NCBI GenBank assembly: GCA_029194535.1 | Contig: JARFXR010000001.1 | Coordinates: 620,001-684,000 of the forward strand | Source of the DNA: Nitrospira sp. | GTDB taxonomy: Bacteria; Nitrospirota; Nitrospiria; Nitrospirales; Nitrospiraceae | Reading direction: 5' to 3' | DNA: 64,000 nt | Shown here: piece by piece, positions 6,275 through 44,998 of the stretch | How the letters are laid out: the number at the start of each line of letters is the position of its first letter | How positions within the stretch are numbered: the stretch's first letter is position 1 | Notes under the pieces: generated by a model | The model's database searches: none | Told to the model about the DNA's origin: nothing | The model's input: the letters and a program-made list of their open reading frames with translations, nothing else | Program-made: the position numbers and the translations under genes

Positions 6275-6325
6275 GCCGCGAATATCGCTCGGATCTCATC
6301 TGGCTTGATCTCGGGCAGGAGAAGA

Positions 6326-6360
6326 GGGGCCGGCTCCCAAAGGGGCGCCGGCCCCATTCT
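6326..6360 (+). terminator. Intrinsic terminator of the HU gene
   Basis: GGGGCCGGC (6326-6334) pairs perfectly with GCCGGCCCC (6347-6355) around a 12-nt loop. A T-rich ATTCTTTT tract follows. Confidence 0.8.
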
Positions 6361-39731: not shown

Positions 39732-41453
39732 TCAGCTACTCTCGGTAAATTGATGCTCTCGGTAGACGGCCAACGCGGAAGCGAGGCGGGTTTTCAACTC
39801 CAGGCGCTTGGGTTTCCCGGTCGAGGTGTAGGGAAGGTCGCGGCCGAAAATGAAGACTTTTGGACATTTGGAGAATGGAAGCGACCGGCGGCAGTACTCC
39901 TGTAAATCCTTCTCGTTCGGCTCAGAACGCCCTTCTCGCGGAACCACGTAGGCGGCGATCTCCTCTCCATAGTAGCGATGTTCGAATGGAACGGCCATGG
40001 CGAACTGCACAAGCGGATGGCGCTTCAATACATCATCGATCTCCAGCGGTGAGATGTTGATGCCGCCTCGAATGATCAATTCTTTCAGTCGGCCTGAAAT
40101 GAAGAAAAACGGTCGTCCCCTCTTGTCTCGTTGAAAGAAGCCCTCGTCCCCGGAACGGAACCAGCCCCATCGAAACGCGGCCTCGTTGGCGTCGTCCCGT
40201 TTATAGTAGCCACCGCAGACGGTCCGGCCGCGGATGCAGATTTCTCCTCTCGCTCCCTCCGGCAGTGAGCGCCCCTGTTCGTCGATGATCGCCATCATGT
40301 TGTGTCGCAACGGCACTCCGATTGAGGGGAACTCGTAGGCGCTCAGCCAGTGACGATGCTCTTCAGGCGACAGATCGTTCGGCAGGAAGCACGAGTAGCA
40401 GGTCGTTTCCGATAGCCCGTAGCCGTGGCGGATCGGAAAACGGAATCGTTCTTCGAAGCGAACAGCGGTATCCTTCAATAACGGTCCGGCGCCGCAGATG
40501 AAGCCTCGAAACCGCTCCAGTCGGTAGGGAGTCAGGTCTTCGTCGGCGTCCAGCAAGAACTCGAGAAGCGTGGGCACGACGCTGACACAGGTGACGCCCT
40601 CCTCATGCAGTCTCCGCCAGAAGGTCGTACTCTTGAATTTGCGATTCAGGACGACGCTTCCTTTGCAGTAGAAAGGCGTGAGAAGCGTGACGACCGTGCC
40701 GTTCACATGGTGGATGGGGAGCACGCACATGAAGCGATCATTCCCGTCGAAGCGATGCCAGTCGGCGATCGCATCGGCGTCGGTCAGGAGATTCTGGACG
40801 GTGAGGATCACCCCCTTGGGTGCTCCCGTAGTTCCGGACGTATAGACGATGAGGGCTTCATCGCTCAGACCGGAGGAGTGCGACGCGGGGCGAAAGGTGA
40901 TCGAGGTCGCTTCCTTGAATCCTTCCGCTCCGTGCCCGGCAACGTCTCGAAAGCCGTCATCGTTCAATGGAACCACGTGCCGCAGGGTCGGCAGGTCTTT
41001 CTGCAGTTCTCGTACTTGTTTGACAATCGTATGCCAACAGCACACGGCCGAGGCCTCCGAATGCTCCAGGATGAACCGCTGCTTATCGGGCGGCTCGTCG
41101 ATGTTGATCGGCACGACCGTGATGCCTGCTGCCCAGGCGGCGAAGTACAACACCACGGTGACGTCATGGTTGAAGAGAATCGTCGCCAACCGGTCCCCGC
41201 GCCGAAGCCTGATCCGGTCGTGGAGAAACGACGCGGCGCGCTGGACGATGGTGCCGAATTCAGCATAGCTGTACGTGGAGTGGAGCTGCCGGTCGTCGTC
41301 GCAGTAGGTCAGGAACGGTCGGTTGAGCAGGTCCCGATCATAGACCCGCGATCGGAAGAAGTCCGCGAACGAGTTCCACGGCAGGGCAGGGGGGCCGTCT
41401 TCCATCTGCCGCGCCGCGGCCATGTCATCAGCGACGGTGATCGATGTCGACAT
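39732..41453 (-). CDS. AMP-forming acyl-CoA synthetase
   Basis: The 573-aa ANL-family enzyme activates a carboxylate with ATP and transfers it to CoA. Motifs are YTSGTTGAPKGVI (P-loop), GYGLSETTCYS, RSGDEGFF, GRLKELIIRGGINIS and the C-terminal catalytic lysine in TSTGKPKRLELK. The substrate is not predictable; after prpC a propionate or medium-chain acid is plausible, while long-chain ligases look similar. It is the last gene of the supercluster and overlaps prpC by 26 bp. Confidence 0.85.
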   Translation of the reverse strand: MSTSITVADDMAAARQMEDGPPALPWNSFADFFRSRVYDRDLLNRPFLTYCDDDRQLHSTYSYAEFGTIVQRAASFLHDRIRLRRGDRLATILFNHDVTVVLYFAAWAAGITVVPINIDEPPDKQRFILEHSEASAVCCWHTIVKQVRELQKDLPTLRHVVPLNDDGFRDVAGHGAEGFKEATSITFRPASHSSGLSDEALIVYTSGTTGAPKGVILTVQNLLTDADAIADWHRFDGNDRFMCVLPIHHVNGTVVTLLTPFYCKGSVVLNRKFKSTTFWRRLHEEGVTCVSVVPTLLEFLLDADEDLTPYRLERFRGFICGAGPLLKDTAVRFEERFRFPIRHGYGLSETTCYSCFLPNDLSPEEHRHWLSAYEFPSIGVPLRHNMMAIIDEQGRSLPEGARGEICIRGRTVCGGYYKRDDANEAAFRWGWFRSGDEGFFQRDKRGRPFFFISGRLKELIIRGGINISPLEIDDVLKRHPLVQFAMAVPFEHRYYGEEIAAYVVPREGRSEPNEKDLQEYCRRSLPFSKCPKVFIFGRDLPYTSTGKPKRLELKTRLASALAVYREHQFTESS

Positions 41454-42585
41454 AGGCCTCTTTCGCGGGCCCCGTATACAAGGCCCGCGGACGGATCAGC
41501 CGGTTGTGATCTTGCTGTTCGATCACGTGGGCGCACCACCCGGTAATGCGAGAGCAGACGAAGACCGGCGTGTAGAGCCGGCGAGGAATGCCCATCAGGA
41601 GGTAGGCCACCGCCGCATAGAAATCGAGGTTCGGGTAGAGCCCTTTCTCCTGCCGCATGATGCGCTCGACGGCCAGGGCGATCTCATACCATCGGCGGTC
41701 GTCGCAGGTCCGGCTCAACCGCTCGGCGTGCCGCTGAATGATCGCCGAGCGCGAATCGCCCTTCTTGAGGACGCGATGGCCGAAGCCCATGATCCGGTGC
41801 TTGCCGGCCAGCCGCTCCCGAACCCATCGCTCCGCGTTGTCGGGGCTCCCAATCTCGAGGAACATCTCCGCGACGGCCTCATTCGCCCCTCCGTGCAGCG
41901 GTCCCTTGAGCGTGCCGATCGCCGACGTGACGGCCGAGTAGAGGTCCGTCATGGTCGAGGCGGTCACCCGCGCCGAGAAGGTCGAGGCGTTGAATTCGTG
42001 CTCCGCGTAGAGGGTAAGGGATACGTCGAGCGCGCGAGCCATCAGAAGCCCTTTGTCGCCGCCTTCTCGGCCGGTCAAGAGGAAGAGCAGATTCCCCGCA
42101 AAGCTCGCATCCGGCCGCCGCTCCTTGCGCGGCGTCCCGTTCACGAGCCGATGCGCGGTCGAGATGATCAGAGGGATGCACGCGAGTAGCCGGATCGCTT
42201 TCTGGAGATTCGCCTCATGGGAATGATCCTCGGCATCAGCGTCGATCATCCCCAACAGAGACACGCTGGTCCTCAGAATGTCCATGGGGTGGGCAGCGGC
42301 AGGAACCGTGCTCAGGAACGCTTCGACAGGACCGGGGAGCACGGCCTGTGCCGCGAGCCGCTCCTCGAAATCCTTCAACTCCTTCACGGTCGGGAGCTTG
42401 CCAAAGAGCAGCAGATAGGCCACTTCTTCGAAAGTCGCCCTGTCCGCCAAATCGTCGATCGCGTACCCGCGATACCTCAGACCTCCCTCGTCTTCATCGA
42501 CATGACAGAGGGCCGTTTCACCGGCGAGGACTCCGTCGAGTCCCGCGGCGTGCGCGGGAGTTGTGTGAGGCTCACTCGTGGCCAT
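41428..42585 (-). CDS. prpC: 2-Methylcitrate synthase / citrate synthase
   Basis: The 385-aa citrate-synthase-fold enzyme has GLRYRGYAIDDLA, LNFDCitrate-type segments EHEFNASTFSARV and GFGHRVLKKGDSR, with catalytic His and Asp in these blocks. The position directly after prpB, overlapping it by 14 bp, indicates condensation of propionyl-CoA with oxaloacetate. Sequence alone does not separate it from ordinary citrate synthase. The start codon lies inside prpB. Confidence 0.88.
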   Translation of the reverse strand: MATSEPHTTPAHAAGLDGVLAGETALCHVDEDEGGLRYRGYAIDDLADRATFEEVAYLLLFGKLPTVKELKDFEERLAAQAVLPGPVEAFLSTVPAAAHPMDILRTSVSLLGMIDADAEDHSHEANLQKAIRLLACIPLIISTAHRLVNGTPRKERRPDASFAGNLLFLLTGREGGDKGLLMARALDVSLTLYAEHEFNASTFSARVTASTMTDLYSAVTSAIGTLKGPLHGGANEAVAEMFLEIGSPDNAERWVRERLAGKHRIMGFGHRVLKKGDSRSAIIQRHAERLSRTCDDRRWYEIALAVERIMRQEKGLYPNLDFYAAVAYLLMGIPRRLYTPVFVCSRITGWCAHVIEQQDHNRLIRPRALYTGPAKEAYVDIDHRR

Positions 42586-43486
42586 GGTCGTCTCCCATCA
42601 AGTGAAACTGCCGATCGCGTTGTTCATACTCCGCGTACCGCAGGAGGTCATAGAGTTGCTCTCTGGTATGCATCCGCTCCAACAGGTCGCGCTGTGAACC
42701 GCGGTGTCTCAGTTCCGACAGCATCTGATCGATCGCCTTTGTGGCCATCCGCAAGGCGGTGACGGGAAACAGGATCACACGATAGCCGAGGTCTTCAAAT
42801 TCGCCGACGCTCAAATAGGGAGTCTTGCCGAATTCCGTCATGTTGGCGACCAGCGGAGCCTTCCCGCCTTCTTTGGCGAACTGTCGGGCGAAGGCGCGGA
42901 ACTCGTCCGCCGATTCGAGAGCTTCGGGGAAGATCGCGTCCGCACCGGCGTCGATGTAGGCTCGCGCCCGTCGCACGGCCGCGTCCATTCCTTCGACGGC
43001 GCGCGCGTCCGTGCGGGCGATGAGGAAAAACTCCGGATCCTGCCTGGCGTCGCTCGCCGCGCAGATCTTGCTCACCATGTCGCTCGTCGTGACCAGCCGC
43101 TTTCCAGGCAGGTGCCCACATTTCTTGGGCAATTCCTGATCTTCGATCTGCATCCCCGCCAACCCGGCCTTCTCGAATTCCTTCACGGCCCGCATCACGG
43201 CGAGGGGAGGACCGAAGCCCGTGTCCGCGTCCACGATCGCGGGAATCGCCACGGCCTTGGTGATGGTGGCCGCGTCCGACACCACTTCCGCCAAGGAGAG
43301 CAGCCCGATATCCGGCAATCCTCGTGCGGCCGACAGGCCGGCGCCCGACACGTACAGAGCCTGGAAGCCGGCACGCTCGATCTGCATGGCCGTCAGGGCA
43401 TTGAAGGCCCCGGGGAGGACGAGCGTCTGCCTGTCAAGCAGCGCGCGGAAACGGTGGGGTCTTCTGGGTCGTCGCGTATCGCTCAT
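42572..43486 (-). CDS. prpB: 2-Methylisocitrate lyase
   Basis: The 304-aa member of the PEP-mutase/isocitrate lyase superfamily has the catalytic motif PKKCGHLPGK, VDADTGFG and ARTDARAVEG. It splits 2-methylisocitrate to pyruvate and succinate. It is flanked by prpC and prpD, completing a methylcitrate core; oxaloacetate hydrolase or carboxyphosphonoenolpyruvate relatives are excluded by context. It starts 6 bp after prpD. Confidence 0.93.
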   Translation of the reverse strand: MSDTRRPRRPHRFRALLDRQTLVLPGAFNALTAMQIERAGFQALYVSGAGLSAARGLPDIGLLSLAEVVSDAATITKAVAIPAIVDADTGFGPPLAVMRAVKEFEKAGLAGMQIEDQELPKKCGHLPGKRLVTTSDMVSKICAASDARQDPEFFLIARTDARAVEGMDAAVRRARAYIDAGADAIFPEALESADEFRAFARQFAKEGGKAPLVANMTEFGKTPYLSVGEFEDLGYRVILFPVTALRMATKAIDQMLSELRHRGSQRDLLERMHTREQLYDLLRYAEYEQRDRQFHLMGDDHGHE

Positions 43487-43492
43487 CGCCTT

Positions 43493-44998
43493 TCACCTCT
43501 CGGTGATTCTGAGCAACGGCATCAAGGCACTGATGTCTTTGAGCTGCTCCAGCGCCCAGACCGATCGCATCACCTTCCTCATGCGGACCTGATCCAATTT
43601 CCCGCCGGCCAGTAAGCGAAACTTCTCCTCGACATGGCGGTCGGACATCGGGTTCTTGGGATGGCCGAGGGGATAGTCCGCCTCGTGGAGATAGACCGTT
43701 CCCGCTTTCGTCCGAACCGTGATGCGCGTCGGCATGGCCTGCGGATAGCGGCCGACGAAGTCAGGCTGCGGAACGACGCGCACCTTTTGTATCAACTCGC
43801 GCAGCGCCGGGTCGGTGAGGCGCGCATTGTCGAAGGAGCGCAGCGTGATCCTGCCGTCCAGGAGCGCCGCCGCCACACAGTACGGAAAGCTGTGGTCGGC
43901 GGTTTCTCTCGTGCGAGGGCGCCACTTTTCCGGATCGCGCCCGATGATTTCGATCGCGACGTCATAGCTGGCGATTTCGATGTCGGTGATGGAGGCCGGC
44001 GCGTCGTCGCCCTCTGCTTTGAGCAGATCCTCCCGGATGGCCAGCGCGGCCTCCACCGCCGTCTGTGCGTGATATTCCACCGGATAGTGTTTGATGTAAG
44101 TGTCCAGGATCTTGAACGAAGGGGACTGGTTCCAGGGGCCTGACCCCCTTCCCCCGGGGTCTGTCCCCGTCGTAGAGGGACAGGCACCGGCCTCCAGCCG
44201 GAGCCAGCCCCTGGGTGCCTGTTCCCGCTCCCCCGCGAATCGGAAGAGATCCAACGGCCCCGAGACCAGTTTCATGAAGCCCTTCTCCCCTTCGAAGATC
44301 GGGGAGGGCCCCGTCATGCCGCGTTGCGCCAGCGTCGCGGCAAATACCCCGTTGCGTGCCGCGTTGGAAAAGGCGCAGGCCTTCCACATCGAGATATCGC
44401 CGACTCGCGTCTGGCGCAACGCGATATTCGCCACGCCCGCAAGGTTGACGGCCTGCTGAGTCTGCGCGACGGAGAGGTTCATCACCTTCGCCGCCCCGAG
44501 GGCCGATGTGAAAGGACCGTAGGTGACGTGGTCCCAACCACGCGGTCGCAGCGCCGCGGCATCGCAGAGGCGGCATTGCACTTCATAGGCGATCGCGACG
44601 GCCTGAATCACGGACTTCCCCGACGCACGGGACGCCTCGCCGGCCGCAAGGATGGCCGCAAGGTTGTCCGAAGGGTGCGCCGGTTCCTGGGCGAGGTACG
44701 TATCGTTGAAATCGAGATACCGGACCAGCGCGCCGTTGGCGAAGGCCGCGAGATCGGGCAGCGTCTTATGATGCGTGCCCCAGAGCGTCGCGCCGCCGGC
44801 GACTCTGACGGATTCTGCAATGCGACGCGCAATCCGGCAGGGCGGTGCATTCCAGGCTCCCAGCGCGCAGCCGAGGCTGTCCAAAATCCGCCGCTTCACC
44901 TCGTGCACGACGGCCTCGGGCAGGTCTTCGTATCGGAGATTGCGGCTATATCGGGCGAGACGGTTCGCGAGCATCGGCTCTCCCGTCGATAAAGTCAT
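43493..44998 (-). CDS. prpD: 2-Methylcitrate dehydratase with an internal palindromic-repeat insertion
   Basis: This MmgE/PrpD-family protein (501 aa) dehydrates 2-methylcitrate. Family blocks are LDFNDTYLAQEPAHPSDNLA, AIAYEVQCRLCDAAALRPRG and YIKHYPVEYHAQTAVEAAL. Between the FRFAG block and FKILDTYIKHYP it carries about 38 extra residues (near 255-292), rich in Gly, Pro and Arg and encoded by a cluster of palindromic words. The frame is kept. I start at the ATG at 44998; TTG at 45010 is less likely. Whether the enzyme is active with the insertion is unknown. Confidence 0.88.
   Translation of the reverse strand: MTLSTGEPMLANRLARYSRNLRYEDLPEAVVHEVKRRILDSLGCALGAWNAPPCRIARRIAESVRVAGGATLWGTHHKTLPDLAAFANGALVRYLDFNDTYLAQEPAHPSDNLAAILAAGEASRASGKSVIQAVAIAYEVQCRLCDAAALRPRGWDHVTYGPFTSALGAAKVMNLSVAQTQQAVNLAGVANIALRQTRVGDISMWKACAFSNAARNGVFAATLAQRGMTGPSPIFEGEKGFMKLVSGPLDLFRFAGEREQAPRGWLRLEAGACPSTTGTDPGGRGSGPWNQSPSFKILDTYIKHYPVEYHAQTAVEAALAIREDLLKAEGDDAPASITDIEIASYDVAIEIIGRDPEKWRPRTRETADHSFPYCVAAALLDGRITLRSFDNARLTDPALRELIQKVRVVPQPDFVGRYPQAMPTRITVRTKAGTVYLHEADYPLGHPKNPMSDRHVEEKFRLLAGGKLDQVRMRKVMRSVWALEQLKDISALMPLLRITER
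44121..44235. repeat. REP-like palindromic cluster inserted in prpD
   Basis: Successive palindromic words occur: GGGGCCTGACCCC (44135-44147) and GGGGTCTGTCCCC (44156-44168). They are followed by GGGACAGGCACC (44177-44188) facing GGTGCCTGTTCCC (44214-44226), with an inner CTCC-AGCC-GGAG hairpin. This vocabulary is known from REP-type repeats of many bacteria. No other copy was noticed in the window. Confidence 0.7.

Follow-up and report, generated by a model that had tools for sequence, protein, structure and literature searches.

Nested REP-like palindromes read in frame within prpD of a Nitrospira-type bacterium

The prpD gene of a Nitrospira-type bacterium contains, in frame and between two conserved domains, a nested set of palindromic repeats belonging to a family that is dispersed through its genome and those of its relatives. 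This segment is very probably explained by a nested pair of REP-type (BIME-like) insertion events. In the common ancestor with the nearest relative (G001), a single REP would have entered the linker that connects the helical and lid domains, directly past a conserved Gly-Glu; a complete two-REP unit would subsequently have landed within this older REP. Insertions that keep the frame would persist as neutral additions to the protein, with the others being purged; the arms of the repeat are free of stop codons and the linker is variable and predicted to be disordered, so that in-frame insertions could survive. The conversion of mobile DNA to protein is usually observed as an isolated, frozen event, whereas here many events of differing age are found at the same codons, and the same enzymes present bare loops alongside fresh near-perfect, eroded, replaced and nested repeats. 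With events of many ages in one family, insertion, tolerance, decay and possible use become testable by comparison and by enzyme assays.

The prpD insert and the protein around it

The window analysed here is a stretch of 64,000 nucleotides (positions 620001-684000 of contig C1) from a genome of 3.98 Mb (G000) whose closest named relatives are Nitrospira. The product of prpD, which is accompanied by prpB-like and prpC-like genes (Table 1), has both the two-domain fold and the family score of an MmgE/PrpD protein. Pfam recognises one domain on each side of the insert, MmgE_PrpD_N (E 8.5e-89) at residues 17-252 and MmgE_PrpD_C (E 8.6e-50) at residues 309-486 of a 505-residue reading from TTG, with the extra segment between them. 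The reading frame is open across all of the palindromic words, in agreement with the initial annotation, which had both conserved flanks in one frame and had quoted palindromic words that are indeed all present (Table 1). Its estimate of about 38 extra residues encoded by 44121-44235 holds as regards the insert itself and was slightly too generous in extent: the repeat DNA spans 44121-44226 and encodes about 36 residues (258-293), and the excess length is 28-34 residues over typical relatives and 23 over G001, the loop of which is itself an eroded repeat. The motifs LVSG and DTYIK are separated by 51 residues compared with 17-28 in most relatives. Absence of the insertion from most relatives was also borne out: without a REP the linker measures 17-23 residues in most of them and the longer loops hold different repeats, so that the annotation's refuting condition, a segment of similar length in relatives or an ancient domain, does not hold.

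Proteins of the PrpD/cis-aconitate decarboxylase family consist of two domains that are loosely joined via a flexible loop (PMC7347537). As the extra segment falls between the two Pfam domains, it lies in this interdomain linker, which runs from the helical to the lid domain. An AlphaFold model (48 sequences) has a mean pLDDT of 84, falling below 50 at residues 260-291, such that the insert is predicted to be disordered. The best PDB matches of the model are PrpD (5mvi, 6s62) and ACOD1, cis-aconitate decarboxylase (6r6u), with TM scores of 0.72-0.81 by query length.

Table 1. Features of the prpD region, in window coordinates
Feature	Position	Strand	Details
prpC-like gene (citrate synthase family)	41428-42585	-	Pfam
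prpB-like gene (PEP_mutase/ICL family)	42572-43486	-	Pfam
prpD (MmgE/PrpD family, 2-methylcitrate dehydratase)	43493-44998	-	501 aa from ATG, frame intact
Outer, older REP, arm 1, GGGGACTGGTTCC	44121-44133	+	pairs with 44213-44226 in the minimum-energy fold; arms, eroded, also in G001 (L013)
Inner two-REP unit: REP-B, 8-base linker, REP-A	44134-44212	+	order and orientation as in free-standing units of G009 and the own genome
REP-B hairpin, GGGGACAGACCCC..GGAAGGGGGTCAGGCCCC	44135-44168	-	model match 44121-44168, 20.8 bits, E 0.007
REP-B word GGGGCCTGACCCC	44135-44147	+	read on + strand
REP-B word GGGGTCTGTCCCC	44156-44168	+	read on + strand
Linker GTCGTAGA of the inner unit	44169-44176	+	
REP-A hairpin, GGGACAGGCACCGGCCTCCAGCCGGAGCCAGCCCC	44176-44212	+	covariance model match 50.5 bits, E 4.4e-10
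REP-A arms, GGGACAGGCACC..GGAGCCAGCCCC	44177-44211	+	GGGACAGGCACC at 44177-44188
Outer REP, arm 2, GGGTGCCTGTTCCC	44213-44226	+	pairs with arm 1 in the fold
Word GGTGCCTGTTCCC	44214-44226		

The minimum-energy fold of the plus strand places the paired outer arms around the inner hairpins and reaches -33.5 kcal/mol, compared with -24.6 for shuffles (z -3.6; 0 of 200 shuffles as good). Inside these arms, the elements follow one another as they do in the free-standing two-REP units of G009, which read GGGGACTGACACCCTTC..GGTGTCTGTCCCC-GTCCGAAC-CGGGACAGGCACC..GGAGCCAGTCCCC, and G001 possesses the outer REP only, in a worn form (GGCACAGGCATCC..GGGAGCCAGTCCCCC). The simplest history is that of an old REP in the linker that later received a two-REP unit within it. 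Single words prove nothing, since the 12- and 13-mers by themselves are no rarity in the window and 15-19 of 100 shuffles attain their count; it is the hairpin model and the genome-wide copies that carry the case. Moreover, the covariance model behind the 50.5-bit score was built from 20 copies that included the one in prpD, and proof consequently rests on other loci.

The repeat family and known palindromic elements

The repeat has the form GGGACAGGCACC-loop-GGAGCCAGTCCC, and its loop stems covary, with both sides changed in seven sequences at each of two pairs. The covariance model, on which the census is based, was built from copies in the own genome and in L009, a soil relative; 96.5% of cells are paired in the hairpin, the score of which was attained by 0 of 500 shuffles. 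In the own genome the model recognises approximately 33 distinct loci with E values of about 1e-3 or better, most of them intergenic. Of 61 genomes searched, the own among them, 26 have matches, up to a maximum of 53 in one genome, and all of these 26 lie within two families of the order; a phylum-wide search of 148 genomes, with a stricter threshold and filters, returned matches in the same family only. Beyond the GGGACTGG side of the repeat there is no conservation, while the other side is followed by a conserved GTT(C), equivalent to a GAAC tag (T at the second base in 28 of 30 copies; end confirmed in G009). The unit accordingly reads GAAC-GGGGACAGGCACC-loop-GGAGCCAGTCCCC and measures 33-49 bp when single and about 95 bp when double, in which case REP-B and REP-A stand head to head in inverted orientation with GTCCGAAC between them, as seen in G009 and among own copies. 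The general features of REPs and BIMEs, many interspersed short imperfect palindromes that lie mostly outside genes and pair in inverted orientation, are all found, and the family behaves like a REP/BIME-like, non-autonomous and presumably mobile palindrome of the Nitrospirales.

Ten of the 30 best own copies start no more than 10 bases, and most no more than two, from the stop codon of a coding frame; REPs adjoining stop codons have been reported for other REP families (PMC3733652). At L076, L080, L087, L091, L093, L095, L097 and L100 of the own genome the REP lies within two bases of a stop codon or overlaps it, often TAG (a raw count). Several draft contigs of G009 (C6, C17, C32) end about 70 bases or less from a REP, which suggests that the REP breaks assemblies and that draft counts are low. 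Rfam identified only tRNAs in the window. A hit near 6325-6356 of the window fell on a G+C-rich hairpin, GGGGCCGGCTCCC..GGGGCGCCGGCCCC followed by ATTCTTTT, which is probably a terminator.

It is hardly credible that a G+C-rich low-complexity linker was simply expanded through slippage, with palindromes arising by chance. The Gly/Pro/Arg-rich peptide and a linker of variable length in all relatives would suit such a process, but it is refuted by a hairpin that recurs, with E of about 1e-3 or better, in at least 30 unlinked positions, by the free-standing two-REP units of G009 and by the sharp ends.

In the initial annotation the insert was likened to the Rickettsia palindromic elements (RPEs). 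The likeness is apt in so far as a palindrome absent from relatives is read in frame within a conserved, otherwise intact protein, and RPEs likewise are translated in frame in conserved proteins and tolerated, an RPE-decorated guanylate kinase still being active (PMC2229807). The prpD insert, too, is presumably translated in the cell. The likeness does not extend to membership: RPEs are Rickettsia-specific elements of 105-146 bp (Ogata et al., 2000, as reviewed in PMC2229807) and RPE-4/6 end in CGTC, whereas the host here is Nitrospira-type and, as compared by description, unit length, sequence and tag all differ.

With GTAG- and CGTC-tagged REPs the family shares a short imperfect palindrome, an unpaired tag at one end, head-to-head dimers and a location that is mostly intergenic or near stop codons, with some copies in frame in genes. 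It belongs to neither type, since there is no GTAG or GTGG 5' of the hairpin and no CGTC end tag, but instead a conserved GAAC. It is further set apart by its Nitrospirales host, by nesting in PrpD, by the finding of no flanked transposase or Y1/RAYT gene among the loci examined and by the filling of the same PrpD, UvrA and HisH loops in several separate lineages. The REPIN is reportedly a unit of two inverted REPs, as is the double unit here. A tetranucleotide at the hairpin foot is a further point in common with REPIN/RAYT systems (Bertels and Rainey, 2011, PMC3116915; subclasses PMC6006769), although the canonical GT[AG]G tag is absent here and the RAYT-type genes of most relatives are flanked by other inverted repeats. 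The enterobacterial RU-1, RU-2 and RU-3 are also small non-autonomous elements the frames of which fuse to host proteins, but they are of another type and 103-168 bp in length (PMC2759123).

Intragenic REPs as such are already known. GTAG- and CGTC-tagged REPs have been described inside genes of other phyla, uvrA included, and, at nearly coinciding positions, inside recB of two Xanthomonas; loops and linkers were suggested as places where they can be tolerated (Di Nocera et al., 2013, PMC3733652). A 2025 REP survey had N. moscoviensis among the scanned genomes, and the accessible part of it makes no mention of coding copies (PMC12306157). What is new here is a differently tagged (GAAC) family in Nitrospirota, its nesting, and the filling of the same codons time and again; that uvrA also carries insertions in unrelated phyla (PMC3733652) is a convergence that deserves explaining.

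GTAG-type REP families are tied to Y1 transposases (PMC6006769), and Y1 (RAYT-type) genes were found in 86 of 118 genomes searched with the own-genome protein. In this family-wide search no transposase gene flanked by the repeat was seen among the loci inspected, which cover part of the genes, and the repeat model gave nothing above 14.2 bits near 15 Y1 loci. The Y1 genes inspected have other inverted ends, GGGGTCGGGAGTC or GGTGTCAGGAACC, or no clear ends, and G009, the genome richest in the repeat, has no PF01797 match. The own Y1 transposases were rejected as movers on the same grounds, an identical pair having GGGGTCGGGAGTC ends and relatives GGTGTCAGGAACC or other ends. The two genes of this pair (L068 and L069, C1:759957-760625 and 771076-771744) are RAYT-like, lie 11 kb apart at different sites with the ends AAAAGGGGTCGGGAGTC / GACTCCCGACCCCTTTT, and have the appearance of a tyrosine transposase element, bounded by terminal inverted repeats, that moved recently.

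Recurrence at the same protein loops

Of 85 copies examined in relatives, 10 score as coding to either side, L331 doubtfully so; the other nine fall in uvrA (four), hisH (three), a second uvrA (one) and one other gene (one). In UvrA, the loop that separates the ABC signature from Walker B is 12 residues long in roughly half of the genomes, and in others it has 16-27 residues without a REP; REPs occupy it in G000, G001, G003, G009, G020 and G033 and, in eroded form, G002. The HisH loop before KVPHMGWN (baseline about 4-22 residues) contains REPs in G003, G009 and G020, and a loop of the ATPase B subunit has different REPs in G000 and G017. In the PrpD linker, recognisable REP DNA is present in 15 of 68 rows, which form about five separate groups in the Nitrospirales with differing REP types, sizes and frames: the own protein with G001; N. 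moscoviensis with the Nitrospira that have a 28-residue loop; the soil rows L009, L011 and L012; L010; and L008, the weakest at 19.4 bits. REP-A is found in L009, L105 and L113, a two-REP unit in L010, and REP-B in L114, the neighbours of which have REP-A. Copies outside the building set scored 53.7 (L011), 46.1 (L012), 43.9 (L113) and 35.1 bits (L105, N. moscoviensis). With apparently repeated gains in the PrpD linker and the UvrA and HisH loops, these proteins record mobile DNA becoming protein.

On a tree built without the linker columns, the REP states of PrpD require at least nine changes, which may be gains or losses. The AU test rejects a single clade, with p 2e-6 when all 15 REP rows are considered and p 2e-35 for the ten from Nitrospira, a result that rules out one gain without losses and is compatible with one gain followed by many losses. 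It is nevertheless unlikely that one ancient insertion, inherited and later lost or decayed, accounts for all REP-bearing PrpD linkers with no recurrence. Within the L105-L126 Nitrospira clade the frame (ERGQAP..SQSP) and the 28-residue length do recur, and L119 and L121 resemble deletions of that clade's REP; against this, L010 and L114 hold other REP types in other frames at the PrpD site, and the bare 12-residue UvrA loop keeps the same motif across lineages, which would be hard to regain by loss.

A possibility of some, albeit limited, weight is that REP segments owe their spread between species to homologous recombination among prpD alleles and not to new insertions. L009 and L011 are 98-100% alike over the linker and 76-97% elsewhere, while L025, a near neighbour of L009, is without a REP and diverges from it most around the linker (0.75-0.81 compared with about 0.93), which points to local recombination as a likely route of REP gain or loss in the soil group. 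This evidence comes from one group, however, and exchange of alleles leaves the differing REP types and the nested unit unexplained. A broader proposal, which at present appears doubtful, is that the PrpD linker, the UvrA loop before Walker B and the HisH and ATPase B loops are true hot spots, hit repeatedly by a single-strand transposase that would swap REP types at the same codons and maintain a standing supply of new loops in Nitrospirota.

Coding copies and tolerance of the insert

Copies were called as coding on the basis of the codon usage of 28 long frames in the window. Four of the 30 best own-genome copies lie well inside coding sequence on both sides; besides prpD these are in uvrA (C1:1167897), the V/A-type ATPase B subunit (C1:131203) and an N6/N4 DNA methylase (C1:390518), so that the insert has further coding counterparts in its own genome. 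At random at least 58% would be expected to be coding (a low value was chosen; P 4e-7), and insertions in genes are therefore purged. The repeat arms have no stop codon in any of the six frames, and 168 of 180 frame readings of copies are open, compared with 75.5% for random genomic pieces.

In five related Nitrospira with the 28-residue loop (14 codons each; pairs non-independent), differences at the three codon positions number 21/27/27 in the REP-derived codons and 456/279/1531 in the rest of prpD. Given this flat spread, the insert seems to drift neutrally within an otherwise conserved enzyme. Predicted disorder, the interdomain location and the lack of a third-position excess together make the insert look tolerated rather than selected, and it may be neutral for PrpD activity.

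Recruitment of the insert, as a functional enzyme loop or as an mRNA hairpin that tunes operon expression, is quite improbable. A 28-residue linker is kept in about ten Nitrospira species, and an mRNA role has been proposed for REP hairpins in other bacteria (PMC3733652), yet the insert has no codon-position bias, is predicted to be disordered and differs in sequence between species, with L152 eroded beyond resemblance.

Three further loci touch on coding by the repeat. At L096 (G000:C2:1135639-1135687) a REP encodes the N-terminus of a RimO-like protein, placing the start codon in or upstream of the repeat. The carbonic anhydrase frame at L084 (G000:C1:278620-278657), which matches only the start of the family profile and ends through the REP, looks like a decayed gene. 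Finally, L351 (contig C28 of G020, 1047-1098) is a coding REP within a 612-residue protein that is nitroreductase-like by eye.
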